Part shown: in pieces, positions 22,714 to 43,829 of the stretch
Numbering within the stretch: the stretch's first letter is position 1
Layout of the letters: each line of letters begins with the position of its first letter
NCBI GenBank assembly: GCA_019359115.1
Contig: JAHHHW010000071.1
Coordinates: 1-64,000 of the forward strand
Direction of reading: 5' to 3'
Length of the DNA stretch: 64,000 bases
DNA from: Pelatocladus maniniholoensis HA4357-MV3
Lineage (GTDB): Bacteria > Cyanobacteriota > Cyanobacteriia > Cyanobacteriales > Nostocaceae
Made by a program: the position numbers and the translations under genes
The notes under the pieces: generated by a model
Database searches by the model: none
The model's input: the letters and a program-made list of their open reading frames with translations, nothing else
Told to the model about the DNA's origin: nothing

Positions 22714-22746
22714 CACAAATTTATGGAGTATTGAATTCAAAAACTC

Positions 22747-23832: not shown

Positions 23833-23928
23833 CTCACGATCAGCTATGTACAAAGATGGCGATCGCTACTAGTATTATCTAAAGAAATAAAAATCATAAA
23901 TTGCGTTTATGATTAGGAGATAAATATC

Positions 23929-24669: not shown

Positions 24670-24732
24670 AGGTCTTCTTGATAAATTGCTGTATGACAAA
24701 ATCATGTTCCAATACACTCAAAATTCCCTAGA

Positions 24733-25905: not shown

Positions 25906-25961
25906 GCCAAAGTCCTTTGAGTTTAGCTTTGATCAAATTAAATTGCAGGAATAGGGTAAAA

Positions 25962-27146: not shown

Positions 27147-27333
27147 TAACAATAAACTAAAGCCTCTGTCTCTTATATTCAAGATACGTATTTAAACCTA
27201 AATATGATTATTGCTATCAATATCACTATATTCCAATACGCTTGCTGATCAACACTACAATCCTTTGTAGAGACCGGATAAATACGGTTTCATTCCTAAA
27301 AAATTAGTATTTTATTATACTCAAGAGGTATTT
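27147..27333. other. Intergenic, no gene seen
   Basis: This 187-base gap separates two GT4 genes and is longer than the other gaps of this part of the locus. It may hold an internal promoter. AAGAGG lies just before the next ATG. Confidence 0.4.
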
Positions 27334-28599
27334 ATGAAAATCCTGATATCTGCCTACTCATGTGAACCAGGTAGGGGTTCTGAACCTGGTGTAGGTTGGA
27401 GTGTTGCACGAGAAGTCGCCAAATACCATGAAGTCTGGGTATTGACTAGACCTGATGAAAGTGGTGACATCATTGAAGCAGAATTAGCTCGTAATCCAGT
27501 CCCTAACTTGCATTTTGCATATTTTAATTTACCCATATTGGGGGGGGTGTGGCGTTGGAACCAATCAGGGGCGATGCAAATTCACTACTATCTTTGGCAA
27601 ATTCAAGCATATTTTGTTGCCCGTCGCCTGCATCGTCAAATTGGCTTTGATGCCATTCACCATGTCACTTTTGTGAAATATTCCAATCCTAGTTTCCTGT
27701 CACTGTTGCCTGTTCCCTTTATTTGGGGCCCGGTGGGTGGTGGAGAATCTGCACCAAAGGCTTTTTGGAAAGATTTTAGTCTACGTGCCAAAGCTTATGA
27801 AACTGCACGCAGCTTGGTTCGCTGGGTTGGTGAACTTGATCCATTTGTCCATATGACTGCCAAAAAAAGTACTCTCATTCGAGCCACGACAGAAGATACA
27901 GCCGAACGCATTCGCAAAATGGGTGTCAATCAAGTAGAGGTGATTTGCGAATCAGGTTTACCCAAAGAAGAAATTCTCAATCTTGCTCAGTGTTTAATGC
28001 CCACTGACTCCACCGTCAGATTTATTAGTATGGGTAGACTCTTGCATTGGAAAGGTTTTCACCTGGGATTACATGCTTTTGCTAAAGCCAATTTGCCGAA
28101 TAGCGAGTACTGGATTCTAGGTGATGGGCCTGAGCGTCAAAACCTACAAAACCTGGCTGAAAAACTGGGAATTGCCGAAAAGGTAAAATTTTGGGGAAGG
28201 CTACCAAGAGAGCAAAGCTTAGAGAAATTGAGTGAGTGTATCGCATTGGTTCACCCTAGCCTCCATGATTCTGGTGGTTGGGTTTGTCTGGAAGCAATGG
28301 CAGCAGGTCGCCCAGTCTTGTGTCTAGATTTGGGGGGCCCGGCTGTGCAAGTGACATCCGCCACTGGCTTTAAAGTTCCTGCTCACACACCTGAACAAGC
28401 TGCACAGGATTTGGCGTCAGCAATGATCCATTTAGCGCAAGATCCAGAATTGAGAAGTCAAATGAGCCAAGCGGCACAAACCAGAGTCAAAGAGGTGTTT
28501 GACCGAGAAGTGATGGGTGCAGCCTTAGCTCAACTCTATGAAGAAATTGTAGGGCGTCGCACTCCTCAAACTGAACCGATATTACTTAACTCTAACTAG
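27334..28599 (+). CDS. Glycosyltransferase family 4 (GT-B)
   Basis: This 421-residue protein starts MKILISAYSCEPGRGSEPGVGWSVAREVAK, a signature of a GT4 subgroup frequent in cyanobacterial exopolysaccharide loci. PFIWGPVGGGESAPKAFWKDF lies in the middle and the donor domain reads VRFISMGRLLHWKGFHLGLHAF, YWILGDGPER and HPSLHDSGGWVCLEAMAAGRPVLCLDLGGPAVQV. The first acidic residue of E-x7-E is Asp. The ribosome site AAGAGG is good. Confidence 0.9.
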   Translation: MKILISAYSCEPGRGSEPGVGWSVAREVAKYHEVWVLTRPDESGDIIEAELARNPVPNLHFAYFNLPILGGVWRWNQSGAMQIHYYLWQIQAYFVARRLHRQIGFDAIHHVTFVKYSNPSFLSLLPVPFIWGPVGGGESAPKAFWKDFSLRAKAYETARSLVRWVGELDPFVHMTAKKSTLIRATTEDTAERIRKMGVNQVEVICESGLPKEEILNLAQCLMPTDSTVRFISMGRLLHWKGFHLGLHAFAKANLPNSEYWILGDGPERQNLQNLAEKLGIAEKVKFWGRLPREQSLEKLSECIALVHPSLHDSGGWVCLEAMAAGRPVLCLDLGGPAVQVTSATGFKVPAHTPEQAAQDLASAMIHLAQDPELRSQMSQAAQTRVKEVFDREVMGAALAQLYEEIVGRRTPQTEPILLNSN

Positions 28600-28621
28600 T
28601 CTATTGTGGGAATAACCTCGT

Positions 28622-29797
28622 ATGCGTATTCTAAGTATCCACAATAGCTACCAAATTCGCGGCGGAGAAGACGAGTGCCACGAGGCTGAGGTCAACCTTT
28701 TACGAGAGATGGGGCATCAAGTCGAAGTTTACGAAGAAAATAACGATCGCCTTGCCAATTTGAGTAAGCTAGATGTCGCTGCCAAAACAGTTTGGTCAGA
28801 TGAAGCCTACCAGACTGTCAGGCTTAGGTTACAACAACAGCCCTGTGATGTTGTTCACGTCCAGAATTTTTTCCCCCTGATTTCGCCTTCAGTGTATTAT
28901 GCAGCCAAAGCACAGAAAGTCCCTGTAGTTCAGACTTTACACAATTACCGTTTTCTGTGTCCAAATGCGTTGTTTTTCCGGGAAGGTAACATTTGTGAAG
29001 ACTGCTTGGGGCTACCTGTTCCCTATCCAGGAGTCTTGCATGGTTGTTATCGCAACAGCAAAGTGGCAAGTGTTGGTGTCACTACAATGCTGAGTGTGCA
29101 TAGACTGATGAACACTTGGGTAAAAACGGTGGATCTATACATCGCTCTGACTGAATTTGCTCGCCAAAAATTTATTGCTGGTGGTCTGCCAGCAGATAAA
29201 ATTGTGGTTAAACCAAACTTTGTCAGTCCTGAACCTGCGATTGGTAAGGGAAGTGGTGGCTATGCCCTTTTTGTAGGTAGACTTTCTGTAGAAAAGGGTT
29301 TAGACACCCTGTTAAAAGCTTGGGAACATCTCGATGTAAAAATACCTCTCAAAATTGTAGGGGATGGCCCTTTAGCTCACGAAGTGATAGCAGCTGTCAA
29401 ACGACATTCCTATATAGAATGGCTAGGACGCAGACCAATGTCAGAAGTCCATGATTTGATGGGAGAAGCGATGTTTTTAGTCTTTCCCTCGAAATGGTAT
29501 GAAACCTTTGGGCGTGTAGCAGTTGAGGCATTTGCTAAAGGAACTCCCGTGATTGCTACCAATATCGGTGCTGTCGCAGAATTGGTAGATCCTGGTCGAA
29601 CTGGGCTTCATTTCCGTCGTGGTGATGCAGATAATTTAGCTACTCAGGTAGAGTGGATTCTAGCAAACCCAGCAAAGCTTGCTGACATGCGCCAAGAAGC
29701 ACGAGCAGAGTTTGAAGCAAAGTACACAGTTCAGAAAAATTACCAAAAACTAATGGAAATTTATACCAAAATGCAAAACTTTGGTGGCAAAAATTAA
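28622..29797 (+). CDS. Glycosyltransferase family 4 (GT-B)
   Basis: This 391-residue transferase has MRILSIHNSYQIRGGEDECHEAEVNLLREMGH, then the Cys-containing LHNYRFLCPNALFFREGNICEDCLG, characteristic of one GT4 branch. GYALFVGRLSVEKGLDTLLKAW, LKIVGDGPLAHEVI and PSKWYETFGRVAVEAFAKGTPVIATNIGAVAELV give an intact E-x7-E. It starts 22 bases after the previous stop and ends 18 bases before the polymerase-like gene, so these are in one operon. Confidence 0.9.
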   Translation: MRILSIHNSYQIRGGEDECHEAEVNLLREMGHQVEVYEENNDRLANLSKLDVAAKTVWSDEAYQTVRLRLQQQPCDVVHVQNFFPLISPSVYYAAKAQKVPVVQTLHNYRFLCPNALFFREGNICEDCLGLPVPYPGVLHGCYRNSKVASVGVTTMLSVHRLMNTWVKTVDLYIALTEFARQKFIAGGLPADKIVVKPNFVSPEPAIGKGSGGYALFVGRLSVEKGLDTLLKAWEHLDVKIPLKIVGDGPLAHEVIAAVKRHSYIEWLGRRPMSEVHDLMGEAMFLVFPSKWYETFGRVAVEAFAKGTPVIATNIGAVAELVDPGRTGLHFRRGDADNLATQVEWILANPAKLADMRQEARAEFEAKYTVQKNYQKLMEIYTKMQNFGGKN

Positions 29798-29815: not shown

Positions 29816-31210
29816 ATGAACACCGGGATAGGGGTTTACAAAAAACAGGAAGGATACATTAAAAATTCACTTCTCATACTACTAGCTTTTGCTACCGCTT
29901 TTTTCCCCCGGATTCTTAATTCTATTGGCTTCCCCTCACCAATCAATTTTGTTCACTTCGTCATCGTTCCAATAGCTTGTGGAATTGTAGTCACTAAAAC
30001 TAAGGTAAGAAATAAAAACCAAATTTCAATTGCTAAAGCAGTTCTAGTTAGTTTTTTAATTCTCCTCGGAACTATGACCGCCAGCGCCTTTTTAAATAAA
30101 GCTGGGCTAATTAATATCTTCTTATCGTTGATGTTGCTGAGTGAGCCATTTCTAGTCTTACTGGCAATAATTTGTATTCCTATTTCTCAAGAAAACTTTA
30201 AAAAATTTAGAGTTTGGATACTACGTTTCGGTTGTTTTCATATTTTCTTAGCGATCGCCCAACATTTTCTAATCACCATTGGACGTTTAAGAGTTACTGA
30301 AATGCAACCAACAGACAATGTTCAAGGAGTTTTCTATCTCACAGGCTCCGGTCATGTTGTTGCTGCTTCTGTATCTATGTGCTTTGGTTTGTATTATTTA
30401 ATCAGTGCCAAGACTGCTCCAATATGGTTACGACTTTCTGTGATTGTTGCTGCCTTTTTTCAGTTATTATTCGCTGACGCTAAACAGGTACTTTTAGTTT
30501 GGCTACTAGCTTGGTTTATATTAATTCTGATTAAATTACAAGATCTGAGAAAAACAATACAATATTTGATAGCTGCAATTTTAATTTGTTACGGATTGTG
30601 GTGGTGCATAGGAAATGTAGAAGCATTTGCCGCTTTTAATACTTGGATCAGACCAGGGCTTTATGGTCCTGATGGTGAAGCGACATTACTTAAGTTAGCA
30701 CCAATTAGAATTATTCCGACATTTTATAAATCGTCCTTAAATTGGTTGCTTGGTCTTGGTCCAGGTCATACAGTTGGGCGATTAGGGGGATGGATGTTAA
30801 AGGACTACTCATCTTTATTAAAACCATTGGGTGCTACTATCCATCCTGCTAGCCAGGCTGTTTGGGATGCTTGGAGTGAAACTGCTTGGTTAGACTCTAG
30901 CTTTTTCGCTCCACTTTGGGGATGGGCTGGTATTTGGGGAGATTTTGGATTTCTAGGTTTAGGAGCTTATTTATATCTTGCATCTATCGTCTGGTATCGA
31001 ATTTGCTTGGATGACTTTTGCAAATTTACAATGCTGACTGTGTTGATTTATGGTTTCATTTTCACTCAGCTAGAAGAACCTGGCTATATGCTCTCAATGG
31101 CTATGTTAATTGGTATGCGATGGCATGAGTTACAAATTTTGAAGTACTCGCGCTTTTATAATGCACAATTGGGTACAGAAGCAAATAGACAATTAAAGGC
31201 TGAAATTTAA
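29816..31210 (+). CDS. O-antigen ligase / Wzy-like polytopic membrane protein
   Basis: This 464-residue protein has about ten to twelve hydrophobic segments and a large periplasmic loop between about 260 and 365 that contains WLLGLGPGHTVGRLGG. This is the layout of the O-antigen ligase / polymerase (Wzy_C) family, which joins glycan units or transfers the glycan to an acceptor in the periplasm. The locus also has a Wzm/Wzt exporter, where a Wzy polymerase is not needed, so a ligase role is somewhat more likely, but both are possible. A ribosome site of type AGGGGGAT precedes ATG 29816. It ends the plus-strand locus and converges with the lasso cluster. Confidence 0.8.
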   Translation: MNTGIGVYKKQEGYIKNSLLILLAFATAFFPRILNSIGFPSPINFVHFVIVPIACGIVVTKTKVRNKNQISIAKAVLVSFLILLGTMTASAFLNKAGLINIFLSLMLLSEPFLVLLAIICIPISQENFKKFRVWILRFGCFHIFLAIAQHFLITIGRLRVTEMQPTDNVQGVFYLTGSGHVVAASVSMCFGLYYLISAKTAPIWLRLSVIVAAFFQLLFADAKQVLLVWLLAWFILILIKLQDLRKTIQYLIAAILICYGLWWCIGNVEAFAAFNTWIRPGLYGPDGEATLLKLAPIRIIPTFYKSSLNWLLGLGPGHTVGRLGGWMLKDYSSLLKPLGATIHPASQAVWDAWSETAWLDSSFFAPLWGWAGIWGDFGFLGLGAYLYLASIVWYRICLDDFCKFTMLTVLIYGFIFTQLEEPGYMLSMAMLIGMRWHELQILKYSRFYNAQLGTEANRQLKAEI

Positions 31211-31520: not shown

Positions 31521-32651
31521 TTATTCGTCTAGTAAAATACTTTTATCTCTAATTAACCAACGCCAGAATAACTCTAAATACAAAATTTTATTGTGCAAAC
31601 GCTCTCTTACCTGAATATGATAGCGAGTGTTTTGCATAAATTTATGATTAGTATTAGTTTTATTAAGTATATCCAGACAAATTTCTGAAGCTAATTTTGC
31701 GACTTTGTGATCATTCGTAATTTTATTGATAACTCCTATCGGTAAATTTATTCCTATCAACTGACGTGTGAGAAAAAGACCGAGAAAAAGCATTCTTTTA
31801 CAATCAAAATCATTAGCTTTTTGAATCACTATTTCCCAATTAATTTCGGTGTTCTGTCTAAGTAACTCTGCAATATCAGCTAACCAACTGAGTTTTTCCC
31901 AACGATGTCTTGATGCATGATTAGTGAGCAATAGTAACCAATCTTCTGCCGAGAAACTGTAGATTTCCATCCCACCAAGGCTAGATGAATGGAGATTTTC
32001 CCAAATATACTTGACTTCAATTGCAGATGTATAGCGTGGTGTAATTCGCCAATGAATTTCCACCATTATTCCCTTGCTATCATTTATAAAGTTATAGGTA
32101 TGCTTACTTTTATCTTTTAAATAATTAATTTCCTCAACTTCTGTCAATTGAATTTTTGGTCTGTATCCTCTAGTAATTAGGAGATTTTTGAATTTCAAAA
32201 CATCCTGTTGTTGCACCAATATATCTAAATCACAGAACTGACGCAGTCCAATATTTCCATATAGTAAATTCGCTAAAACAGGACCCTTATAAGGAACAGC
32301 GAGAATCTCATTTTCTTGCAATAGACGTAAGAGTTGTACAAGTTCCCCAGTTAGCATTAAACTGCGTTGAGCATTTGTGTAGAAAATATTGCGAAGTTGA
32401 TTGAGGACATTTTTCGGAACAATATCTGGTGCGATCGCATTCAAATTAGTATATAAAAGCGGCATGAGACCATGCTTATATGCATTACCGATGACATCTT
32501 GCCAGTCTAAATCTGCTCGTTGAATCAAACTTTTTATTTCTTCAGTTTTGGCTACATCTATTTTAGTAGAAGCACAACAAAGCAGTAGCTGCATTTCAGG
32601 ACGAATATTAACACCTAAAATATTGGTATTTAACTTTGGTAGAGTTTGCAT
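31521..32651 (-). CDS. Nucleotidyltransferase-family protein of lasso-peptide cluster (NTP_transf_5-like)
   Basis: This 376-residue protein has VPYKGPVLANLLYGNIGLRQFCDLDILV (about residues 119-146), the GxxxxxxLYxxxxxRxxxDxDxLV pattern of the nucleotidyltransferase-like family found beside lasso and other RiPP genes. FINDSKGIMVEIHWRI supplies a further acidic strand. Members of this family are frequent accessory genes of lasso clusters, and the reaction is usually unassigned. It is the last gene of the minus-strand cluster, 51 bases after the ABC transporter, so it may be the final tailoring enzyme. It converges with the polysaccharide locus. Confidence 0.75.
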   Translation of the reverse strand: MQTLPKLNTNILGVNIRPEMQLLLCCASTKIDVAKTEEIKSLIQRADLDWQDVIGNAYKHGLMPLLYTNLNAIAPDIVPKNVLNQLRNIFYTNAQRSLMLTGELVQLLRLLQENEILAVPYKGPVLANLLYGNIGLRQFCDLDILVQQQDVLKFKNLLITRGYRPKIQLTEVEEINYLKDKSKHTYNFINDSKGIMVEIHWRITPRYTSAIEVKYIWENLHSSSLGGMEIYSFSAEDWLLLLTNHASRHRWEKLSWLADIAELLRQNTEINWEIVIQKANDFDCKRMLFLGLFLTRQLIGINLPIGVINKITNDHKVAKLASEICLDILNKTNTNHKFMQNTRYHIQVRERLHNKILYLELFWRWLIRDKSILLDE

Positions 32652-32702
32652 TTGCTTTTATTCACTTTAATATAAGTCTATGATTTATTGATTTTCAGTT
32701 AG

Positions 32703-34541
32703 TTAAACAATCCCATTTTCAATTTTCTGACTTGAACTGGACTCCATTTGCGCTTGCCAAGACTGAGCATAAAGTCCGCCTAAAGTCAATAATTCTCTAT
32801 GATTGCCAGACTCTACAATTCGACCAGCACGCATCACGTGAATCATATCTGCCTGCATCGCCAGAGTGAAACGGTGAGTAATCACAACAGCAGTACGTCC
32901 TGCTGCTAAGGAACGGAAACGTTCTAACCAATCGTATTCAGCCCAGGGGTCCATAGCACTTGTGGGTTCATCTAAAATAATGATTTGAGCGCGTCTAAAA
33001 AAAGCTCGCGCTAGCGCTAGACGTTGCCATTGACCTCCACTTAAATCGGTTCCTGATGGAAACAACTTACCCAACATCGTGTTGTAACCCAAGGGTAAGC
33101 GCATAATCTTATCGTGAATACCCGATGCTTGAGCTGCGGCTTCAATTTCTGTCTGATTTGATACTGCTGTGATATCTCCCAAAGCAATATTTTCACCTGC
33201 TGTAGTGTAGTAAGGAATAGGAGATTGGAATAAAACAGTAATTAATCTACGCAATTTTGTGACAGCAAATTCACACAAATTGATACCATCTAATTCAATT
33301 CTTCCTGAGTCAGGATCATAAAAACGGCACAAAAGCTTAATGAGTGTACTTTTGCCTGCACCATTATCACCAACGATCGCCACAATTTTGCCAGCAGGAA
33401 TCGTCAAGTTAAAATTCTCTAAAACTACTTCCTCTGTGCCAGGATAGCGGAATGTAACTTGGTCAAATCTGATTTCTTGCTTGAGTGTTGAGGGTACTGG
33501 GACTGGGTTAGATGGATCTACAATTTGCGGCTGAATTTGTAAAAAATCAAATAAATTACTAATAAACAGGCTATTACGATAAATTTGTGCCAAGTTGTCC
33601 AACAGAGATTTTACAATTCCCTGTCCCTGATTAAATGCCTGGTAGAAAAGGGCTAAGTCTCCTAAAGTTAGAACTCCTAATAATACTTGCCGTCCCATCC
33701 AAGCAAGCGCACAACCAGTCACAAATAAAGCTATGATACCAGCAACAAAGCGACCTAATGTTTGCTCTTTGATGAGTTTTAGCTGTTCGTGTCGAAGTTG
33801 CCGACGCAATTTTTGGTACAACGATTGAAAGTAATCACCAAAATCAAACAATCGTACTTCCGCCGCCGTTGCGGAGTTGGTCAATAGCAGATCGTAGTAC
33901 ATTAACCAACGGCGTTGAGTTGTAGTTCTTTGTGACCATTGATACTGAAGTTTGTTTACACGTAGTAGCACATAGAACGCAGGTAAGGCACTAATCACAA
34001 GAATGATCGGCAGCCAAAAACCATAAGGAAGCAAGATTGCAGCCATGGTAAACAAGGTAATCGTATTCTGGGCTAGACTACCTGTACTTTCTAATAAAGC
34101 AAGCGATCGCCCAGCTGCACCCCCCCGCGCCCGTTCAAGTTGATCGTAATACTCAGATGATTCATAACAACCATAATCAATAGCAACTGATTGTTTGTGA
34201 ATCAATTCACTGATATGATCTTGAACCAGTTCTGACTGCGCTGTACTAATCAATCCGCTAGCACCTTGCAGAAATTGCGTGAGTAGCAATACAACAGCCA
34301 TCAAACCTACAGGTATCAGCACTGTCTGAATATTGTCCCAGGAAATACCAGCACCAACACCTGCAACCAGACTATTCACTACATAGCGAGTCAAATAAAC
34401 CGTGACTCCAGGAAGTAATCCTTGCACCAATAGCAGTAATATCCAGGCTAGAGTCCAATAGCCAGAAGCAGCCCAAACCAATCTCACTGTGATTACGAGA
34501 TTATTCAGTATCGTCTTCGCACTACGTATTTGGCTATTCAA
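32703..34541 (-). CDS. ABC transporter, fused permease-ATPase (lasso peptide exporter, D protein)
   Basis: This 612-residue half-transporter has an N-terminal membrane domain with about six hydrophobic segments (residues 20-330). The ATPase domain has Walker A VGDNGAGKST, signature LSGGQWQRLALARAF and Walker B IIILDEPTSAMDPWAEY, and ITHRF is the switch region. There is no C39 peptidase domain, consistent with lasso systems where B2 removes the leader before export. It probably works as a homodimer that exports the mature peptides and gives self-protection. It follows the kinase-like gene by 40 bases. Confidence 0.9.
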   Translation of the reverse strand: MNSQIRSAKTILNNLVITVRLVWAASGYWTLAWILLLLVQGLLPGVTVYLTRYVVNSLVAGVGAGISWDNIQTVLIPVGLMAVVLLLTQFLQGASGLISTAQSELVQDHISELIHKQSVAIDYGCYESSEYYDQLERARGGAAGRSLALLESTGSLAQNTITLFTMAAILLPYGFWLPIILVISALPAFYVLLRVNKLQYQWSQRTTTQRRWLMYYDLLLTNSATAAEVRLFDFGDYFQSLYQKLRRQLRHEQLKLIKEQTLGRFVAGIIALFVTGCALAWMGRQVLLGVLTLGDLALFYQAFNQGQGIVKSLLDNLAQIYRNSLFISNLFDFLQIQPQIVDPSNPVPVPSTLKQEIRFDQVTFRYPGTEEVVLENFNLTIPAGKIVAIVGDNGAGKSTLIKLLCRFYDPDSGRIELDGINLCEFAVTKLRRLITVLFQSPIPYYTTAGENIALGDITAVSNQTEIEAAAQASGIHDKIMRLPLGYNTMLGKLFPSGTDLSGGQWQRLALARAFFRRAQIIILDEPTSAMDPWAEYDWLERFRSLAAGRTAVVITHRFTLAMQADMIHVMRAGRIVESGNHRELLTLGGLYAQSWQAQMESSSSQKIENGIV

Positions 34542-34581
34542 AGTCTTAAAACCTAAATTAAATAAACAACTATCAATCTGG

Positions 34582-35487
34582 TTATACGGCTAGGAAATTG
34601 GTGCGTTCGGAGTCTTGATCACTCAGTTGGGCAACATCATCTTCTACTAAATTTACTAGCTGGGGTAGATCTATCAGTGAAGGCTTTCTGAGAAAGCGAC
34701 AGAAAGATACCTCCCTAACCAAAGTTGTGCATTTATCGAAATGAGATTTAGCAAAGTCTTGATTTGTGAGTAAACTCGTTGCACGAGTGTGACGCAATAA
34801 CTCAGCAAAAGCCTCTTGGGGCGATAAGCTAATAATCTCGTGACCTGTTCCCTTGTCTAGAACATAAATTCGTTGCAATGGCAAGGGTGTACTCTGAAAT
34901 CCTTTGGTAAATTTATAAGATAGTTTTGAGGCATTGGGAAACAGAGCAGGTAAACTCTCGCGACTGTATCCTAAAGAAGCGGCTGCATCAGGTAGAAGTT
35001 TGACTTGTGGAAAAGCAGGGAAGACAATGGGACTACCTGCGTCAGTTTGAATAGCCATGACATCATCTGTCACAATGTCATAGCCTTGAGCATGAAAGGC
35101 TTTTGCTAAGGTGGATTTCCCCCATCCGGAAGCACCCATAAACGCCACAACTTTGTTGTTAATTGCAACACTACTAGCATGAAGTACCAATAGCCCTCGT
35201 TGTTGCAGCAATACTGCCATTACAGAACCAGGTATGCTTACACGTAGCTTATACTCATCAACACCCGGTTCGGGTTCGATAATCACCTCTTGTCCAGCCC
35301 GAAAGAAAAATTTACCAATTCCTGGTAAGTCACCAAAGATATGATTCTGTTGAGTCAGTGTCTCTTCGGAGATAGTACCCAAGCTCCCTAGACGTAGAAC
35401 GACATCTGGTGAACCTTCAGCAACTGGGAGTTCAGGTAAATAAATCTCCGAGTGGATACAGAGATTATAAGCGGTGTAAATATACAT
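34582..35487 (-). CDS. HPr-kinase-like (HprK-related) protein of lasso cluster
   Basis: The 301-residue protein (from ATG 35487; a TTG at 35502 adds 5 residues) has the HprK C-terminal fold. LLVLHASSVAINNKVVAFMGASGWGKSTLAKAFHAQG carries Walker A GASGWGKST, then IVTDDVMAI, the two acids of which normally bind metal. The first 100 residues are beta-rich and differ from true HPr kinase. There is no HPr or other phosphotransferase gene nearby. In the paeninodin cluster a homologue phosphorylates the C-terminal Ser of the lasso peptide (known for that system). Neither precursor here ends in Ser, so its target is uncertain. Internal DDS sites are one possibility. Confidence 0.8.
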   Translation of the reverse strand: MYIYTAYNLCIHSEIYLPELPVAEGSPDVVLRLGSLGTISEETLTQQNHIFGDLPGIGKFFFRAGQEVIIEPEPGVDEYKLRVSIPGSVMAVLLQQRGLLVLHASSVAINNKVVAFMGASGWGKSTLAKAFHAQGYDIVTDDVMAIQTDAGSPIVFPAFPQVKLLPDAAASLGYSRESLPALFPNASKLSYKFTKGFQSTPLPLQRIYVLDKGTGHEIISLSPQEAFAELLRHTRATSLLTNQDFAKSHFDKCTTLVREVSFCRFLRKPSLIDLPQLVNLVEDDVAQLSDQDSERTNFLAV

Positions 35488-35948
35488 TATTTCTATGAGC
35501 AATATTTAAATTTTGAGGAAAAAGGCGTTGTCTAATTTCAGCAAAAATTTTCAACTGAATTAGTGTTTTCATACTAAATCTCTGAAAAACTAGCAGCAGT
35601 TGATAGAGTGTTGTCTACTACTGGTCTGTCAACGTAACTTTGAAGGGTAAGTAGCCGCTTTGCGTCTACGTGTCTACCCGAAGGGTGAACTTTAGTCATC
35701 TATGAGCGCTTAAGCGCTCACCACGAACCCAGCTTGCGTTGACTTAGAAGACCTTAAGGGGTTTATAGATCCCCGACTTCAGTTGAGAAGTCGGGGATCT
35801 GAACACCCGCGATTCATCAAAATTAATGCGATAGACAACTAGTCTTGGATCTGACAATAGACAACGCCTTTATCGCTAAAGGTTAATGTTCTACCAAGAA
35901 CAACTTAACCTCACAAGTAGTAACCTCAACTTATTTCACAGCAATTAT
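35488..35948. other. Intergenic region, mostly a MITE-like insertion
   Basis: This gap between precursor A1 and the kinase-like gene is far longer than the other gaps of the cluster. Almost all of it is the element described at 35521-35871. The remaining bases next to the precursor contain a weak hairpin at 35867-35882 and no gene. Confidence 0.7.
35521..35871. mobile_element. MITE-like element with imperfect terminal inverted repeats
   Basis: The left end AAAGGCGTTGTCTA (35521-35534) is the exact reverse complement of the right end (35858-35871), and 19 of the outer 21 bases match if mismatches are allowed. Inside are two perfect palindromes: GAGCGCTTAAGCGCTC (35704-35719) and a 14-bp stem GATCCCCGACTTC-type hairpin (35767-35800, loop AGTTGA). 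No coding frame lies within. No clear target duplication is visible. A similar TCATCAAAATTAATG(C/G)GA(T/C)AGAC word occurs near 44160. Confidence 0.55.
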
Positions 35949-36143
35949 CTAGGGTTTTGCCGGGCTTTTTGTGCAGTCCTGACCAGTAGGACCACAATTG
36001 ACATCAAGGGAATCGTCATTTGTTTCTACTACTCGACCGTTGAAGACAAGTAAATCCTTAAAGGCACGATTTCCAGCTGCTTGAGTCAGCTTTTCCAAAT
36101 TCCCGTGAACAATCATTTTTGGGGTGCTATATGTTTGTTTCAT
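35949..36143 (-). CDS. Lasso peptide precursor A1
   Basis: This 64-residue RiPP precursor has leader residues 1-21 that fit the lasso leader pattern YxxPx(L/M)xxxGxxxxxTx: Tyr5, Pro8, Met10, Gly14 and Thr20, with Gln21 at the -1 site. Cutting after Gln21 gives a core starting AAGNRAFKD, in which Asp is residue 9 and could close a nine-residue ring with Ala1. Starting at Gly3 instead would give a seven-residue ring with the same Asp. A tail of about 34 residues follows, with NG, an acidic NDDS and CGPTGQDC (C-x6-C). It lacks any signal peptide. A strong GGAG lies 9 bases before the ATG. It is paralogous to the next precursor. Confidence 0.88.
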   Translation of the reverse strand: MKQTYSTPKMIVHGNLEKLTQAAGNRAFKDLLVFNGRVVETNDDSLDVNCGPTGQDCTKSPAKP

Positions 36144-36232
36144 TGTCTAAATCTCCTGTGTTTTTTGTTTCTACCCTGTTGGATCTACGACATAGCCAGA
36201 ACTAATGATTTCAGCTTGTCTGAAAGCTGTTA

Positions 36233-36430
36233 TTAATTTCCTGCTGGACGGTTTTCACAGTTACCAGTATTGGTATCGCAGAAGATATCTTGCGAATCGT
36301 CACTCTGAATATTACTTGGGTTCCCGTTGAAGAAAAGAACGTCTTTTGTAAGGTTTCTTCCGGCAACTTGAGTCAACTCTGCCAGATTGCCATGGACAAT
36401 CATCTTGGGAGTGTTGTATGTTTGTTTCAT
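36233..36430 (-). CDS. Lasso peptide precursor A2
   Basis: This 65-residue paralogue of A1 lies 89 bases upstream of it. The leader is almost identical (MKQTYNTPKMIVHGNLAELTQ), with the same Tyr5, Pro8, Met10, Gly14 and Thr20. After Gln21 the core would begin VAGRNLTKD, with Asp again at position 9. Val1 would be unusual for a lasso peptide, so Gly3 as first residue (ring of seven) is a real alternative. The tail shares FNG, SDDS and a C-x6-C (CDTNTGNC) with A1. TAGGAG precedes the ATG by 8 bases. Confidence 0.87.
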   Translation of the reverse strand: MKQTYNTPKMIVHGNLAELTQVAGRNLTKDVLFFNGNPSNIQSDDSQDIFCDTNTGNCENRPAGN

Positions 36431-36556
36431 TGTTAATCTCCTAGTTGTTTGTTTTTAGGTAGCGCTGCCCTGAATTGGGCTTACGGTGCTGCTTGGTGAT
36501 AAGGTTTAAGCTCCAAGCTCACAACCTGCCAAGAACACTGAATACTTCTTGAATAT
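36431..36556. promoter_or_regulatory. Gap between cyclase gene and precursor A2
   Basis: This 126-base gap may allow separate, higher expression of the precursors. No terminator hairpin is obvious. The leader region carries the ribosome site of A2. Confidence 0.35.
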
Positions 36557-38575
36557 TTATGGCGTAGGTTGTCTGTGGCGAAACCACAAAGCCAAGACAA
36601 TTGCTTGCCAAACCGTCATAGTGTTTTCCTCTGATACCTTCTGCTCTGATATCATGCGGCGATAAGCTGCTTGCAGGTAATCAGGCTCAATGTACTCTTC
36701 AATAGCTTTTAGGTGATCTGAAATCACTTCATCAAGAAGCTGACGATGAAGAGTTAGCATACCGTGCATGAAGTTAGAAGTCATATTGGCTTTGCCTCCT
36801 CGCCACCGCACAGCTTCCGGTAGAATACCTATCAAAGCACGACGCATCACCATTCGTCCCAATCCTTGGCTGAGTTTCTGTTCTGCTGGGAGTGCCAAAC
36901 AAAACTCTACTAATCGCTTATCCAAAAAAGGATGACGAGCTTCAAGGGAAAATGGTGCTGCATATCGGTCTAGCTGTTCTAGTATGTAGGGAAATATGCC
37001 TTGCGAAAGGTCGCGCCAGTGTTGTTCTCTAGTTGTGAGTGGTGGTTGATTAGAATTGTCGAGTGCTAAGATGCGCTCATCCAAACCGATGCGTTGAGCA
37101 AAACTAGAGTTGACAAGGGGTGCAAGTGGTGATTTTGATGGAGTACGCCCTCGCCATCTTTGCCAAAGCTGACGTATGGATTTGGGAATTAGGGATTTGA
37201 GTCCATAATTGACGAGTAGATATTTGCGAGAGATGTTGAAAGAGTGATGAATTTGATTTACTGCAAAGGCGAAAGTCAACCAGCGAAACTGTCTAGCTTG
37301 TTTTTGCAGTTCAGCGATACCATAAGCTTTCAGCAGTGATTGGGGCGAAGCTTCTAAGTTTTGGGCTACTCCTTGGGCTTCTGCAACAAAAGTTGACCAC
37401 TTTCCTTGATGCGCTAATTCTCTTAGTCTTGGGACACCATGACAAACTGTTGTATCACCATCAAGACCGTCAAAGACTATTCGCACACCCGCCTGTTTAG
37501 CTGCTTGATTTAGTCTCCAAGGATAAAAATGACTAGGACCGAGGAGGGCTTCATCTTCATATTGCCAAATCTCTTTAATGTCTGACAACGGACCAAATTG
37601 GTCAGCTTTGACATAGTGAGGAATCAAACCTCCTTGCTCTAAAACAGCGTTGATGTAAGTACGTTCATCACATTCAGTTACTTCATCAAAAATGTTGGAA
37701 AAAGTGTGTAATTGGGTATCTCCTTGCTGGGCAAGCAATTCACGAACAACACAGGTGATGGAGGAAGAGTCTAGCCCACCACTTAAATGAGAGCCAATCG
37801 GGAAAGCACTACGCATACGACACCGCACTGCTTCGGTAAAAATTTTCCGAAATTCCTCAGCATATGCCTCATCTGAATCTAGCTTAATTTCTCGGTGAGG
37901 ATCTAGTGTCCAGTAACACCAAGAACGTATCCCTGAGTGACTCACTACCATGCTGTGAGCAGGAGGAAGCCGTAAAATATCTTGGTAAGTCGTGATGGCT
38001 TTATCTTCCATCATTAATGCTAAGAAGTCAGCTATTCTCACTTCGTTGATTTGGCGCGGAACTTGCTGTAAGCAGAAAAGCGCTTTAATCTCAGAGGCAA
38101 ATATAAAGGCTTGACCTAGCTGATGGTAATAGTAAAAAGGTTTGACTCCAAAATGATCTCTGCTACAAAAGAGAATTTGCTGACGTTGATCCCAAATGGC
38201 AAAGGCAAAATCGCCAAGCAAATGTTCTGAACATTCTTCGCCCCATTTTTCATAAGCAGCCAATATGATCTGGCTATCAGTGATTTTATCGTGGGGAAGA
38301 TGATCAAATTGTAATATTTTTAAAAGTTCATCGCGATTATCTATGCGAGCATCAGATGTAATAATTATATCACTTGTTTTATTGACTAAAGGTAATTTTT
38401 CGATTAAGGATTCAGGTGTAGTCCACAGCATTCGATGTGCAAAACCCACAGCCCCATTTACCCAAATGTCCGTACCGTCTAAACCTCGGTGTGCTAAGAC
38501 TTCAAGCATGAGTCCTAAATCTTCCCTGTCTACAGGATGATGATTAGGGTGGTAAATGCCCATGATTCCACTCAT
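36557..38575 (-). CDS. Lasso peptide cyclase, asparagine-synthetase-like (C protein)
   Basis: This 672-residue enzyme adenylates the side-chain carboxylate of the ring-forming Asp/Glu and joins it to the core N-terminus. The N-terminal glutaminase-like domain starts MSGIMGIYHPN and has no Cys2, so glutamine hydrolysis is not expected. The synthetase domain carries the ATP motif SGGLDSS (265-271). It contains the AsnB-like ending LEARHPFLDKRLVEFCLALP and RRALIGILPEAVRWRGGK. Its length fits lasso cyclases. The ATG at 38575 overlaps the stop of the B2 gene by 4 bases, so translational coupling is likely. Confidence 0.92.
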   Translation of the reverse strand: MSGIMGIYHPNHHPVDREDLGLMLEVLAHRGLDGTDIWVNGAVGFAHRMLWTTPESLIEKLPLVNKTSDIIITSDARIDNRDELLKILQFDHLPHDKITDSQIILAAYEKWGEECSEHLLGDFAFAIWDQRQQILFCSRDHFGVKPFYYYHQLGQAFIFASEIKALFCLQQVPRQINEVRIADFLALMMEDKAITTYQDILRLPPAHSMVVSHSGIRSWCYWTLDPHREIKLDSDEAYAEEFRKIFTEAVRCRMRSAFPIGSHLSGGLDSSSITCVVRELLAQQGDTQLHTFSNIFDEVTECDERTYINAVLEQGGLIPHYVKADQFGPLSDIKEIWQYEDEALLGPSHFYPWRLNQAAKQAGVRIVFDGLDGDTTVCHGVPRLRELAHQGKWSTFVAEAQGVAQNLEASPQSLLKAYGIAELQKQARQFRWLTFAFAVNQIHHSFNISRKYLLVNYGLKSLIPKSIRQLWQRWRGRTPSKSPLAPLVNSSFAQRIGLDERILALDNSNQPPLTTREQHWRDLSQGIFPYILEQLDRYAAPFSLEARHPFLDKRLVEFCLALPAEQKLSQGLGRMVMRRALIGILPEAVRWRGGKANMTSNFMHGMLTLHRQLLDEVISDHLKAIEEYIEPDYLQAAYRRMISEQKVSEENTMTVWQAIVLALWFRHRQPTP

Positions 38576-39012
38576 AGCTTGACTCCTTCTAATGTTGGCA
38601 AAGGAATGAAGCGCGAAAGGTCACTAAGATTACCAATCACAATCTTTCCCTGATGTTCTATCCAAGCATGAGCTTCTAGGATTCCTGAGTTGTCTTTGGC
38701 GACACCAATACGCAGTTGACAAGGGTGTTTATACCGATTCATCAGGACTTGTGTAGTCAAAGCACGAGCTAAACACTTGACTCCAAGCATGTAACGACTA
38801 GCTACGTTTACAGCCCAAACAATCTTGCGGATAGATACTTGGTTTGTAGTTTGCGGGTGGACTGGTTGACTGATTCTTGCTAACAGTTTTAAGAGGGTAC
38901 GAAACGGCAGTAACCACAATCCCAGGCGCATAGCCGCTAGTAAAATTAAAGTCATGATTAATAAATGGCGATCGCCTGCATCAAACCTCAAAAATTTAAA
39001 CAGTAGCGTCAT
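38572..39012 (-). CDS. Lasso leader peptidase, transglutaminase-like (B2 protein)
   Basis: This 146-residue protease of the lasso B2 family removes the leader while the cyclase acts. Catalytic Cys80 is in GVKCLARALTTQVLM and His115 is in EAHAWIEHQGK, both as in known family members. The family's usual third residue, an Asp after HAW, is not obvious (VIGN follows). An N-terminal hydrophobic stretch (LIMTLILLAAMRLGLWLLPF) could touch the membrane. It overlaps B1 by 17 bases and C by 4 bases, a tight operon. The standalone B2, with a separate B1, is the usual arrangement outside proteobacteria. Confidence 0.88.
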   Translation of the reverse strand: MTLLFKFLRFDAGDRHLLIMTLILLAAMRLGLWLLPFRTLLKLLARISQPVHPQTTNQVSIRKIVWAVNVASRYMLGVKCLARALTTQVLMNRYKHPCQLRIGVAKDNSGILEAHAWIEHQGKIVIGNLSDLSRFIPLPTLEGVKL

Positions 39013-39310
39013 TTTGAATATTTATTAGTTCCGCACCTAGAAGTTCTTCAAGCAATGCAAGCAAATCGCGATCGCACTGTTCAACTTCGACTTCGTACTC
39101 TGCCAAGATCGCCGCTTTAATATCCTTCACCGTTTTGGGTGTTTGAATCAAATTCCAAATTCTTGCTCCCACCTCATTCAAACCGTGATACATACCAGAT
39201 TTCAGATTGAGAATTACTGCTTCACCCCCTAAATCAGAGGAAATTTGCTCAACAGATGCCACAATGATTGAATTTTCTGAAATTTTTTGCTCTACTGCTT
39301 TGAAGTTCAT
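38996..39310 (-). CDS. PqqD-like RiPP recognition element protein (lasso B1)
   Basis: This 104-residue protein has a PqqD/RRE fold that binds the leader peptide and presents it to B2 and C. The family core SGMYHGLNEVGARIWNLI is plain, followed by the helical VKDIKAAILAEYEVEVEQCDRDLLALLEELL. Numbering starts at ATG 39310, the first ATG that precedes the folded domain. A longer frame from a TTG at 39349 has no ribosome site. It is the first gene of the cluster, so the promoter should lie in the 600 bases upstream. Confidence 0.88.
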   Translation of the reverse strand: MNFKAVEQKISENSIIVASVEQISSDLGGEAVILNLKSGMYHGLNEVGARIWNLIQTPKTVKDIKAAILAEYEVEVEQCDRDLLALLEELLGAELINIQNDATV

Positions 39311-40673: not shown

Positions 40674-41609
40674 TTAATTTAATAAATATGTTTATAGCGG
40701 TTAGTTGATTGTTGGCTATGTGGCTATGGTTTAGTTGTAGTTATAACTAAATTCAGATGAGCGATCGCTATATAGTAGAGTATAAAAAATCTATCAAAAC
40801 AATCCTGGAGGATGAGAACCCTTTGTTTCTCTTTAAAAAAATTCTCTAACTGCTTCTTGCAAGGGTAGATATGGAATTGTGTTGAGAAGTATTTTGGGAA
40901 CCGTCAACACGTAAAATATTCATAGTTGGAAGATACCAAAGTCGCCGTACAGCCATGAGAATGATGGAGGTGGTTAGGACTGTTTGAACCGCTCAGAGCT
41001 TAATAGGGCAGAACGTGTACGGAAAAGTAATCAAACTGCCTGCGGGAGGCGGGCGGCTGCGCGGGTTCTTCTTTGAGAAGATAAACGGTGCAAACCGAGA
41101 GATGCTGTGTAAGACCAATTTGTACTCGTACAAGGAGGCTGCGGCAAGTGAGACGCGAAACGATGATGGTTGTTTCTTTGAAGCTACGGCTTCAGCGAAG
41201 CAAGCCGGAGTACTTCACAAGTAACATACATCTCGATTGAAGATCTAGATAAAACTACCAATCTACCTTACGAAATGTTACTGTGTAGGCATAGCAATAC
41301 TTCTGGGTTCAGGGGAAAAGGAACGGATATTTATCTTACCCGCTCCGGAAAACCTATACAGAGCTAGCCAAAGCTAGTCATATCTATTGACAGACATTTT
41401 TAAGACTTGAGACAGGGTGACAACAAATTCAAAATTAGGAATTCAGTATTTAGAATTACCTCACGATTAAAGTAGGGGACACCTGAAACAGAAAATAAAT
41501 TTTGTTGATAATCTATCAAACTGTGGGCTTTTATTTTTGACATTTATTAATTCTGAATTCTGAATTCCCAATTATTTCTGTGAGGAATGTAGTTCAATAT
41601 ACTAAGATT
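40674..41609. other. 936 bases without a supported protein gene
   Basis: This is the longest gene-free stretch of the window apart from edges. Its middle (about 40900-41230) is clearly more GC-rich and hairpin-rich than the flanks and is described as a candidate structured RNA. The right part (41230-41579) is ordinary intergenic DNA upstream of the BY-kinase gene, with AATTCAGAATTC-type repeats near 41440-41575. Confidence 0.6.
40900..41230 (+). ncRNA. Candidate structured RNA (HEARO/omega-like or other)
   Basis: Stems visible include GGCAG/CTGCC (41007-41011 with 41036-41040), a GC-rich run near 41038-41065, GAAGC-TACG-GCTTC (about 41179-41192) and an overlapping CGGCTT/AAGCCG pairing. Coding signs are poor: the only frame (GTG 41015 to 41224) has no ribosome site and no family. 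The size and hairpin density recall the large HEARO-type RNAs that accompany IscB/IsrB genes in cyanobacteria and also occur alone, but I recognise this only loosely and no IscB gene is present. Strand is assumed. Confidence 0.35.
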
Positions 41610-43829
41610 ATGCTGAAATCAGACAAATCTCATCACCCGTTGTTAACAGCCAACTCTGCTCAATTAAATGATGCTGATGAAGGTGGATTAAATTTAGGTC
41701 AAGTAGGAGCAGCTCTTCGTCGGCGAGCATTGTTAATAGCTGGTGCAACTAGCTTAGTCGCAACCGCAGGGGTATTAAAAGCAGAAACAGATCCACCAAT
41801 ATACCAAGGCAGCTTTGAAATTTTAACTAAGCCTGTGACTGGTGAGAGTAAGGCTATAGCTAATGTTCCTCAAACTATAGGGGATACCGACGCGATCGCA
41901 GCTCCAGAAACGACTGAGCAAACCAAGACAACAATTGCAGTTTTACAAAGCCGTGGAGTCCTAGAGCCAGTCATCAAAAAGCTTCAGACTAAGTACCCAG
42001 AAATAGAATACGACTATGTAATTGACAACTTAGTGATTGAGCCTAAAGAGCAAAATATTTTAGAGGTTCAATACATCGATCCAGATCAGCAGCTAGTTAC
42101 TGATTTGTTAAACACCATTAAAAATGCTTATCTGGAGTACAGTTTAGCAGAACGCCGTAACGACGTTGAGCAGGCAATTAAATTTGTAGAAAAACAAAGA
42201 AAGCCATTAGAACAACGAGTCCAAGACTGGCAAGAAAGACTGCGAACCATCAGACAAAAGAATAATTTAGTCGAGCCAGAACAAAAAGCACAGGAAGTCT
42301 CTACTCATGTTGCCACACTGACACAGCAGCAACTAGAAAATCGTGTGATGCTAGAACAAATGCGAGCTCAATATCAGGACTTGCAAAAAGAGTTATTGCA
42401 ACAAACAGGTGCATCAGCAAGTAATTCTCTGCTCAGTGACAACGCCCGCTATCAAAAAATTCTCGATCAACTTCAGCAAACGGATGCGGAAATTGCCAAA
42501 AGAGGATCTATATTTACTGGGCAAGAAGAAGGTATGGTGCGTCTTTCCGAACAGAGAGACACAATGATCTCAATGTTAGAAGGAGAAAGAGCAAGGGTAA
42601 ACAGAGATTTTCAAAGCCGCATTCGGGAGTTGGAAGCACGTGATTTTGCCATTACTGAAAAAATAGATAATCTCAATGGCTATTTGCGAGCTTTAGCAGC
42701 AGTTAGTCGTGATTACGATAATATCCAGCGAGAATTAAAAATTGCCACCGAGGGCTTAAGTCAATTTACCGCCAAGCAACAAGCATTGCAAATCGAATAC
42801 GCTCAAAGATTGCAACCTTGGAAATTACTAGATCCTCAATTGACAAAAGTGGATGATCCTGACGCCATCTCAGATAGTGCTAAGAGAAATCTATTATTGG
42901 GAGGAATGTTAGGTTTGCTGATGGGCGTAGGAGCTGCTTTAGTAGTTGATAAACTCAGCAATGTTTTCTACACATCTAAGGAACTCAAAGAAACCATCGG
43001 ACTTCCATTGTTAGGAGTTGTTCCTCTAAGGAAAGAAATAGCTCTTTCCACAAATGCAGGTAATACTTCTGGTGGTTTGCAGCAAGCAACTCGCGCTTCA
43101 TTCTTTGAAGTATTTCGCTCTCTCTACACCAATATTCTGCTTTTAGGTTCTGATACACCAATTCGTTCACTAGTAATAAGTTCCGCAGGACAAGGCGACG
43201 GGAAATCAACAGTTGCTGTCCATTTAGCCTTAGCAGCAGCAGCAATGGGACACCGAGTCTTGCTTGTGGATGCAAATTTACGTTCTCCCAACCTACACCA
43301 ACGGGTAGGGTTAATGAATATTCAGGGATTAACTGACGTTATTTCTTCAGACTTAGACTGGAGCAACGTGATTGAGCGATCGCCAATTGAAGACAATCTC
43401 TACGTCCTCTCTGCTGGTCCTATTCCCCCAGATTCGATCAGGTTACTCGCGTCTCAAAAAATGCAGGACTTAATGCAAGACCTACATAGTAGTTTTGATT
43501 TAGTGATTTACGACACACCACCTCTCGTTGGATTTGCTGACGCAACTTTATTGGCAGCTAACACGAACGGTATGGTATTAGTCGCTGGTTTAGGTAAGTT
43601 GAAGCGTACCGTCTTCCAACAAGCATTAGAAGAGCTACAAATATCTGGCACACCCATCTTAGGGTTGGTAGCCAACAAGTCAAGAGACGCCGCACTTGCT
43701 TCCTATACCTACTATCAGCAATATTACAGACAGAGCATGAGCGTAGAACGTGTAGGTGACGACGATGACACAGACGACACAAATCACTCTGCGCCGACTT
43801 CTTCTTCTGTAAGAAAAGTTAAAGGATAG
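41610..43829 (+). CDS. Wzc-like polysaccharide co-polymerase with BY-kinase domain
   Basis: The protein has about 739 residues. An N-terminal Wzz/GumC chain-length domain with a membrane helix (ALLIAGATSLVATAGVLKA) is followed by a long coiled coil (residues about 190-390) and a second membrane helix (LLLGGMLGLLMGVGAALVV). The C-terminal BY-kinase has Walker A SSAGQGDGKST, Walker A' VLLVDANLRSP and Walker B DLVIYDTPP. A tyrosine cluster follows (YTYYQQYY). Known members autophosphorylate and control polysaccharide length and export. A GTG at 41580 is an alternative start. It lies 10 kb from the transferase locus, so the link is inference. Confidence 0.9.
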   Translation: MLKSDKSHHPLLTANSAQLNDADEGGLNLGQVGAALRRRALLIAGATSLVATAGVLKAETDPPIYQGSFEILTKPVTGESKAIANVPQTIGDTDAIAAPETTEQTKTTIAVLQSRGVLEPVIKKLQTKYPEIEYDYVIDNLVIEPKEQNILEVQYIDPDQQLVTDLLNTIKNAYLEYSLAERRNDVEQAIKFVEKQRKPLEQRVQDWQERLRTIRQKNNLVEPEQKAQEVSTHVATLTQQQLENRVMLEQMRAQYQDLQKELLQQTGASASNSLLSDNARYQKILDQLQQTDAEIAKRGSIFTGQEEGMVRLSEQRDTMISMLEGERARVNRDFQSRIRELEARDFAITEKIDNLNGYLRALAAVSRDYDNIQRELKIATEGLSQFTAKQQALQIEYAQRLQPWKLLDPQLTKVDDPDAISDSAKRNLLLGGMLGLLMGVGAALVVDKLSNVFYTSKELKETIGLPLLGVVPLRKEIALSTNAGNTSGGLQQATRASFFEVFRSLYTNILLLGSDTPIRSLVISSAGQGDGKSTVAVHLALAAAAMGHRVLLVDANLRSPNLHQRVGLMNIQGLTDVISSDLDWSNVIERSPIEDNLYVLSAGPIPPDSIRLLASQKMQDLMQDLHSSFDLVIYDTPPLVGFADATLLAANTNGMVLVAGLGKLKRTVFQQALEELQISGTPILGLVANKSRDAALASYTYYQQYYRQSMSVERVGDDDDTDDTNHSAPTSSSVRKVKG

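Follow-up and report, generated by a model that had tools for sequence, protein, structure and literature searches.

The question raised by this locus is what kind of peptide system is encoded by eight minus-strand genes in a 64,000-nucleotide stretch of Pelatocladus maniniholoensis HA4357-MV3 DNA (contig JAHHHW010000071.1; the whole stretch is referred to as the window), in what setting these genes lie, and which part of them changes between strains. Here we describe a lasso-peptide cluster that is embedded in an exopolysaccharide locus, flanked by a Wzy-like gene and a Wzz gene, and in which the cyclase, precursor and kinase genes behave as an exchangeable cassette. It is probable, in our view, that this reading holds as a whole, that is, a lasso cluster in a Wzy/Wzz-type locus, whose core-reading part is exchanged and whose enzymes act in the steps proposed below. 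The initial annotation of this DNA had claimed a complete lasso system; at the level of sequence this claim stands, with threading and product being predictions, and all eight genes were found as open frames in the claimed order on the minus strand, from 39310 down to 31521:

38996..39310, minus strand: B1, PqqD-type stand-alone RiPP (ribosomally synthesized and post-translationally modified peptide) recognition element (RRE), predicted to bind the leader (PF05402, 74.4 bits)
38572..39012, minus strand: B2, transglutaminase-like leader peptidase with Cys80 and His115 (NF033537, 120 bits, cut-off 33)
36557..38575, minus strand: C, lasso macrolactam synthetase (cyclase), an asparagine synthetase homologue (NF033535, 1069 bits, cut-off 525)
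36233..36430, minus strand: A1, precursor (NF033528, lasso_cyano, 51.3 bits, cut-off 33)
36236-36367, minus strand: predicted A1 core of 44 residues, VAGRNLTKD..., placed by the Y(-17)/T(-2) spacing and by comparison within the family
35949..36143, minus strand: A2, precursor (NF033528, 44.8 bits, cut-off 33)
35952-36080, minus strand: predicted A2 core of 43 residues, AAGNRAFKD..., from the same spacing and comparison
34582..35502, minus strand: K, HprK/PEPCK-like peptide kinase (motif residues; weak HprK matches below all curated cut-offs)
32703..34541, minus strand: D, ABC exporter (PF00005, ABC_tran, residues 374-528)
31521..32651, minus strand: N, NTP_transf_5 nucleotidyltransferase-like enzyme (PF14907, 217 bits)

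The families were assigned by scans with NCBIfam and Pfam profiles at their curated cut-offs, and the combination of an RRE (B1), a Cys/His peptidase (B2) and an asparagine-synthetase-like cyclase (C) was found. The overlaps claimed for the first three genes measure 17 bases (B1/B2) and 4 bases (B2/C), and the PqqD-type nature of B1 was confirmed by PF05402; the score of B1 against NF033536 (78.4 bits) is narrowly below the cut-off of 80, and its frame can be extended upstream to a TTG at 39349. None of the catalytic residues named in the initial annotation was missing in alignments: Cys80 and His115 of B2 are invariant (13 sequences), and in the SGGLDSS motif of C (residues 265-271) S265, G266, G267, D269 and S270 are invariant and L268 and S271 nearly so (10 sequences). 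B2 does not have the Asp at His+12, which we take to be the third catalytic residue of McjB-type peptidases; this position is Gly in 85 of the 86 B2 sequences with a readable HAW or HAF motif. The absent Asp was considered as a novelty and dropped, since the outgroup B2s of Priestia, Butyrivibrio and Antarctobacter likewise have Gly and that of Sulfitobacter has Asp (3/4 against 1/4), and the Priestia cluster is annotated as paeninodin family. We do not count this Asp as defining a lasso cluster.

To see which part of the cluster varies, the window proteins were compared with those of three congeners, G527, G529 and G528 (identities in this order; best local alignments). D consists of a membrane part (about residues 1-360) and an ATPase domain starting at residue 374, and was split 15 residues ahead of its P-loop. 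The outer proteins are well conserved, with identities of 91/91/92% for the Wzy-like protein, 88/89/86% for N, 94/93/94% for Wzz, 89/90/85% for B1, 92/92/77% for B2 and 92/92/75% for the D ATPase part, and the identities fall to 61/61/56% in C, 56/55/50% in K and 68/68/54% in the D membrane part. At the DNA level, identity is about 90% outside and roughly 50-75% within about 33.4-38.5 kb, lower between genes. The best single breaks were the same against both G527 and G529, 33458 and 38551, and 0 of 300 permutations, which ignore rate differences among sites, gave breaks as high. The former lies about 13 residues ahead of the D ATPase domain and the latter about eight codons into C, and together they delimit one feature:

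33458..38551, no strand: proposed exchangeable block, comprising nearly all of C, both precursors (A1, A2), K and the D membrane half (located with the identity profile and with the best single breaks relative to G527 and G529)

Pairs of congeners without such a swap show what the same proteins look like otherwise. In the pair L121/L122 the identities are 96% for C, 91% for K, 92% for B1, 89% for N, 95% for the D membrane part and 97% for the D ATPase part, and in the pair L124/L125 they are 95% for C, 92% for K, 94% for B1 and 93% for N. Since the two halves of D differ so little in L121/L122 (95 versus 97%), we argue that rate differences among sites are too small for the observed drop. From this drop in C, K and the D membrane half, together with the sharp breaks, we concluded that C-A-K behaves as an exchangeable cassette.

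The C-A-K exchange pattern is repeated in a second genus, where the loci L078 and L161 are 99% identical in B1, 93% in B2, 95% in N and 98% in Wzz but only 55% in C and 39% in K. This exchange switches the precursor from a C-terminal-Ser to an internal-Ser type; D lies upstream of B1 in these loci and is not exchanged, and DNA similarity runs on into C for about 800 bases. In L161, N is divided over two reading frames. Looser candidates for an exchange (L126/L146/L147) occur in a third genus. Across 979 cluster pairs with all five proteins, the identities of C and K are tightly correlated (r = 0.96), followed by B1-B2 (0.78), C-B1 (0.56), C-N (0.34) and K-N (0.28). In nineteen pairs the identity is 85% or more for B1 and 80% or more for N; C is below 65% in eight of these and at least 80% in ten, with one between, and the eight low-C pairs are not independent because all come from two genera. 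As to the origin of the blocks, C, K and the D membrane part of G528 have relatives of 82-89% in other genera (its D ATPase part, 94-96%), and the nearest relatives of its Wzy-like protein, N, B1 and Wzz are the congeners.

The loci used for these comparisons came from a survey of how common the cluster is. In an even draw of 386 cyanobacterial genomes, NF033528 matched in 19 at E 0.001 (10 above its cut-off), and the cyclase cut-off (NF033535) was exceeded in 17; in the family of the window's own organism, 90 of 217 genomes match NF033528, 63 of them above the cut-off. Annotation of the fetched neighbourhoods with profiles grown from the window genes gave 99 cyclases (seven loci were fetched twice). 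K stands next to the cyclase, downstream, in 97 of the 99; the two others are L033, where the contig ends first, and L126, the first of two adjacent clusters. N is present in 50 of 90 clusters (nine rows dropped). The kinase is therefore a normal part and the transferase a common part of such clusters, and the word "extra" that the initial annotation had used for both genes does not apply.

Both precursors have the claimed lasso leader pattern: Y(-17), P(-14) and T(-2) in the leader, with Met at -12 where Leu is usual, and Asp at core position 9, as in a YxxPxL-type leader with Thr(-2) and an Asp/Glu at core 7-9. The Y(-17)/T(-2) spacing used for the numbering is that given in the available part of PMC10368454. 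The predicted ring is Val1-Asp9 in A1 and Ala1-Asp9 in A2, each tail contains two Cys, and the sequences end in Asn (A1) and Pro (A2) and not in the C-terminal Ser of the paeninodin type. They are the only two NF033528 matches of the genome. A recognisable precursor was found at 92 of the 99 cyclases, which gave 133 unique cores; Asp is at position 9 in 120 of them, and a few relatives have it at 8 or 10. Gly occupies the third position in 111 cores, and the first is Ala in 43, Ile in 31, Val in 18, Phe in 10, Gly in 9 and another residue in the rest. Because residue 1 is mostly not Gly, the predicted cleavage site depends on the T(-2) rule. A seven-residue ring with Gly3 as the true residue 1 was rejected, as the T(-2)/Y(-17) spacing sets residue 1 two places earlier, and the distance from Thr to Asp in two relatives with Gly1-Asp9 (L082, L180) equals that in the window precursors; neither numbering is perfect, given the relatives with Asp at 8 or 10.

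The tail carries a second conserved feature. A Ser past residue 12 is present in 119 of the 120 cores of at least 30 residues. It stands in a [GD]S context in 115 (shuffle mean 69, maximum 84), extended to [GD]S.[DN] in 89 (mean 16, maximum 28; 500 shuffles, which ignore relatedness among the sequences). This Ser is residue 25 in A1 (36293-36295) and residue 24 in A2 (36009-36011). Its codon is TCN in 106 of 115 cases and AGY in 9, against 201 TCN and 184 AGY among the 385 other core Ser, and this bias fits a single ancestral site. In a small cyanobacterial group the precursor ends in Ser (LTFS, TS, IVS) or runs three or six residues beyond LTFS (LTFSGTF, LTFSETPMRG). In non-cyanobacterial loci, the precursor encoded next to a homologous kinase has a C-terminal Ser in Sulfitobacter (for one of two candidates), Paracoccus, Priestia and Azospirillum oryzae, and a different end in Halopiger, Butyrivibrio, Antarctobacter and Azospirillum TSH100 (one residue beyond Ser). 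We infer that the near-invariant internal [GD]S, in place of the C-terminal Ser of paeninodin, is the kinase site. If C, K and, in the window's genus, the D membrane domain read the core, they would be expected to travel with it, with B1 and B2 reading the leader and N acting on phosphate or sugar; the co-travel seen above fits the kinase-site idea without proving it.

Two observations may be added on the precursors. Six loci (L013, L016, L017, L018, L028 and L029) encode small peptides with lasso-type leaders and GGSGGFGTT-like cores with no acidic residue at 7-9, perhaps another RiPP type. In the window, a hairpin-like inverted repeat, GATCCCCGACTTC / GAAGTCGGGGATC, lies at 35767-35800 in the gap between A2 and K.

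The kinase K shows the His-Lys-Asp-Asp set of HprK-like kinases (H108, K129, D146, D147). These and the other motif residues (G123, G126, G128 and S130) are each exactly 40 below the residues listed for BsfK in the available part of PMC10368454. Several K homologues begin at the Met encoded at 35487. The strict pattern is kept in 87 of 102 kinases; among the 15 exceptions the first Gly is Ala in ten, the first Asp is Glu in two, and the second Gly, the second Asp and a contig end account for one each. A profile search of PDB sequences with K gave nine weak matches (E 0.0017-0.0076) over P-loop regions, including dephospho-CoA kinases, ABC proteins and three HprK sequences. Structural matches of its AlphaFold model were to PEPCK and HprK, and are taken as supporting only because the model is poor (predicted local distance difference test, pLDDT, 58.6). 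For N, the DLD motif is at 141-143, with D141 and D143 invariant in 8 sequences. Its model is good (pLDDT 85.8) and the best structural matches are nucleotidyltransferases, none at E 0.001 or better; a search against PDB sequences gave no match at E 0.01. In both the kinase and the cyclase tree, 69 internal-Ser clusters form one side of a branch (support 95 and 62; six diverged clusters set aside), a grouping that is not independent evidence because the label was partly defined by the cyclase score.

Two further kinases were seen in the survey. On plasmid pHALXA01 of Halopiger xanaduensis, an archaeal cluster (L181) combines cyclase, B2, B1, kinase, N, flippase and exporter; its kinase is 33% identical to K, and its candidate precursor has residues beyond a GS motif. 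A second HprK-like protein of 377 residues is encoded near a Moorena cluster (L031:14433-15566; Hpr_kinase_C 29.9 bits, under the cut-off).

The lasso cluster sits in an exopolysaccharide locus, between the Wzy-like and the Wzz gene:

20464..29797, plus strand: exopolysaccharide genes (UDP-galactopyranose mutase, one GT2 and four GT4 glycosyltransferases, a methyltransferase and one open reading frame (ORF) without match)
29816..31210, plus strand: Wzy-like polytopic membrane protein, convergent with N, named from its context
41580..43829, plus strand: Wzz chain-length regulator with a ParA-type ATPase domain (PF02706, PF10609), divergent and upstream of B1

The Wzy-like protein has no Pfam match at E 0.1, and its gene is convergent with the lasso genes in other loci as well. 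A 128-residue ORF between B1 and Wzz (39917-40303) has no family match and is 84-89% identical in the three congeners. We compared 81 related loci with 20 control regions from large contigs, located at base 1,000,001. Wzz was found in 30 of the 81 loci, divergent and upstream of the cyclase in 30/30, and in none of the controls; the Wzy-like gene in 30/81 and 0/20; GT4 homologues in 26/81 and 2/20; GT2 in 0/81 and 1/20; and any of these four kinds in 42/81 and 3/20. When sampled ORFs were scanned with Pfam (130 of 423 flanking and 130 of 248 control), Glyco_trans_1_4 matched 18 against 3, and Wzz 7 against none, among the 25 families listed. In the 60 loci whose flanks were long enough, 24 of the 36 cyclases with N and 0 of the 24 without have the Wzy-like gene nearby, and the counts for Wzz are 22/36 and 2/24; shared ancestry may account for this, and a phylogenetic pair test of N against Wzz had very few usable pairs.

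The site without a lasso cluster was looked at in 20 genomes, fetched from the 84 family genomes that have a Wzy-like gene, none of them matching NF033528 in the family scan. A same-strand Wzz is near the Wzy-like gene in ten, at 0.2-1.4 kb (nine) or 4.3 kb (one); a distant (33%) opposite-strand Wzz was found in three, and Wzz is absent from the stretch in seven. Of 13 plasmid loci, nine have an annotated cyclase, and all nine of these have a polysaccharide or sugar gene nearby, a count with no matched control. A search with B2 for kinase-free lasso clusters on plasmids gave five records, each already known to carry a kinase, and so provided no kinase-free control for the polysaccharide link.

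Four other explanations have to be weighed. C, K and the exporter membrane domain might owe their divergence just to faster evolution under selection, with constraint acting on the neighbouring genes and without any block exchange. Specificity enzymes of conflict systems can diversify quickly, and no single donor was found for the window block; on the other side, the unswapped congener pairs show C and K conserved to the same degree as B1 and N, the G528 block has its relatives in other genera and its outer genes in congeners, and the breaks are sharp and close to the starts of the D ATPase domain and of C. We therefore regard fast evolution as very improbable, and exchange of the block remains our explanation for the mosaic. 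It is also rather unlikely that the genes are a pseudo-cluster or make a non-lasso RiPP, with an unthreaded macrolactam or no product. The long tails, the first residue other than Gly and the Asp found at 8 or 10 in some of the relatives are unusual, but the window genes are all open, the cyclase is far above its family cut-off and Asp9 is near-constant.

The two remaining alternatives concern the Ser and the setting. The kinase might act on another residue, and the internal DDS Ser might be conserved because it serves threading, the placement of a plug or C-terminal trimming. According to the available parts of the reports, BsfK phosphorylates core Ser3 (PMC10368454) and LppK uses S3 (PMC13381572), so the target residue is not fixed by the kinase family. 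The near-invariance of the Ser and of its [GD]S context, the TCN bias of its codon, and the cyanobacterial group with Ser last or three or six residues from the end speak for the internal Ser as target, and we hold the alternative to be unlikely, if less so than a non-lasso product. More serious is the view that the polysaccharide neighbourhood is a passive insertion hot spot, unrelated to the function of the peptide. It agrees with the absence of this neighbourhood from 39 of the 81 loci and with the ten lasso-free genomes whose same-strand Wzz lies near the Wzy-like gene, as at an unoccupied site; the constant orientation (30/30), the company that N keeps with the Wzy-like gene and the nine plasmid loci argue for a functional setting. 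A hot spot is a real possibility, though we do not favour it over a lasso cluster that belongs functionally to its locus.

Several points weigh against the reading we prefer, besides the simplifications in the permutations and shuffles mentioned above. No single donor is seen for the window block, since the nearest C is in Moorena (69%) and the nearest K (59%) and D membrane part (73%) are in other loci. The block edge varies, as the D ATPase part of G528 is also divergent (75%); the breaks against G528 are 33425 (weaker) and 38868, inside B2. Core position 1 is Val or Ala, with Gly1 in just 9 of 133 cores. The candidate Ser is internal and not C-terminal as in paeninodin, and HprK-type kinases can use other sites, e.g. 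Ser3 in BsfA in the available text of PMC10368454. Forty of 90 clusters are without N. No polysaccharide gene of the kinds sought is present in 39 of the 81 loci, to which the Moorena loci with the nearest cyclases belong, and three of the 20 controls have one.

From the gene content, motifs, conservation, locus context and mosaic identity we infer the enzymatic steps, the phosphorylation site and export as follows, and regard any link of the product to the polysaccharide as putative. B1 would bind the YxxPxL-like leader, K would phosphorylate the internal Ser of the precursor DDS motif (Ser25 in A1, Ser24 in A2), and N may decorate the phosphate. B2 would cleave two residues past the position of the leader Thr, at -2, and C would activate Asp9 and join it to the amino group of Val1 or Ala1. 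The predicted product has a nine-residue ring, a tail of about 35 residues and possibly a disulfide, and would be exported by D. Its calculated neutral monoisotopic masses, each modification being added to the one before, are 4739.136 (lactam), 4737.121 (disulfide), 4817.087 (phosphate) and 4979.140 (hexose) for A1 and 4501.175, 4499.160, 4579.126 and 4741.179 for A2; a phospho-lactam ending at the motif Ser would have 2769.276 (A1) or 2669.260 (A2). Recombination would swap the core-reading part (C, A and K, with the D membrane half in the window's genus) between strains, and the leader-reading B1 and B2 would stay in place, as would N and the polysaccharide genes. A more speculative extension, to which we give little credence at present, is that a constant half (B1/B2, N, exporter ATPase) and an exchangeable half allow peptide identity to be swapped like surface-sugar types, that the phospho-Ser elaborated by N couples the peptide to sugar or keeps it in the slime layer, and that the product is a surface peptide that diversifies and serves to compete with other strains or to recognise kin. 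If our reading is true, the natural exchanges already separate the leader-reading from the core-reading lasso enzymes and point to a place at which an exporter could be divided so as to alter what it carries, which would help in the design of hybrid lasso pathways; the link of kinase-type lasso clusters to surface polysaccharide loci, in print for Bacilli, would extend to cyanobacteria, and one conserved Ser would be named as candidate kinase site.

Proteins with a PqqD domain were also seen elsewhere in the survey. Four proteins of about 400 residues with a C-terminal PqqD domain are encoded beside a lasso exporter (L149:1625-2863, L154:6424-7635, L166:5490-6767, L178:12721-13947); two of them match Pribosyltran just over the cut-off, and they are possibly another tailoring enzyme with its own RRE. 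At L091:10143-14982, five tandem PqqD-matching genes lie upstream of a diverged lasso-like cyclase with kinase and N; in the scanned one, a PqqD domain is joined to a 2OG-Fe(II) oxygenase.

How does this cluster compare with known systems? Among the titles and abstract starts of the open-access matches listed, none described a cyanobacterial polysaccharide link or cassette exchange. In the parts available, PMC9967302 describes a lasso cluster of Roseofilum and calls cyanobacterial lasso peptides underexplored, PMC11392904, on Chlorogloeopsis, mentions lasso peptides, and PMC13352647 does not contain the word cyanobacteria. The window resembles the paeninodin (PadeK) and pseudomycoidin (PsmK, PsmN) clusters in its HprK-like kinase, whose catalytic residues are the same, and in having a gene for a nucleotidyltransferase, and the available part of a review links PsmN to hexoses on phospho-Ser (PMC9266682). 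In those systems the phospho-Ser is C-terminal, whereas the candidate Ser of the window is internal with 19 residues after it, and we do not file the window cluster as a paeninodin-type member. As far as the accessible text of PMC10368454 goes, BsfK of Bradymonas sediminis has a residue spacing identical to that of K, with an offset of 40 throughout, and the known target in BsfA is not C-terminal either but Ser3 in the ring; the BsfA leader has Ile(-2), that of the window Thr(-2). Of the complete rumen Firmicutes lasso clusters of PMC7533575, 85% have kinases and 36% have glycosyltransferases, and a nucleotidyltransferase occurs in some; the part available covers Firmicutes only, and neither the Wzy/Wzz layout nor cassette exchange was found in it. 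Closest in setting are the LPP RiPPs and paeninodin-like clusters of Bacilli (PMC13381572), which like the window place kinase, NTP transferase, RRE and exporter among polysaccharide genes. The available part reports paeninodin-like clusters in capsular polysaccharide loci, with a biofilm role as speculation, and does not describe cassette exchange; the LPP core genes (signal-peptidase-like enzyme, RRE, kinase, NTP transferase and transporter) include no cyclase, unlike the window. The precursor and cyclase families are already modelled in NCBIfam as NF033528 (lasso_cyano) and NF033535 (lass_lactam_cya), whose curated cut-offs both window precursors and the cyclase exceed, and the cluster is a further member of them. 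The NF033528 model spans precursor residues 1-35 only, and does not extend to the Ser motif of the tail, to the gene composition of the cluster or to its surroundings. Compared with these systems the gene list is ordinary; the more interesting part is the exopolysaccharide setting and the exchangeable core-reading block, which, like the internal Ser motif, go beyond what the initial annotation had described.

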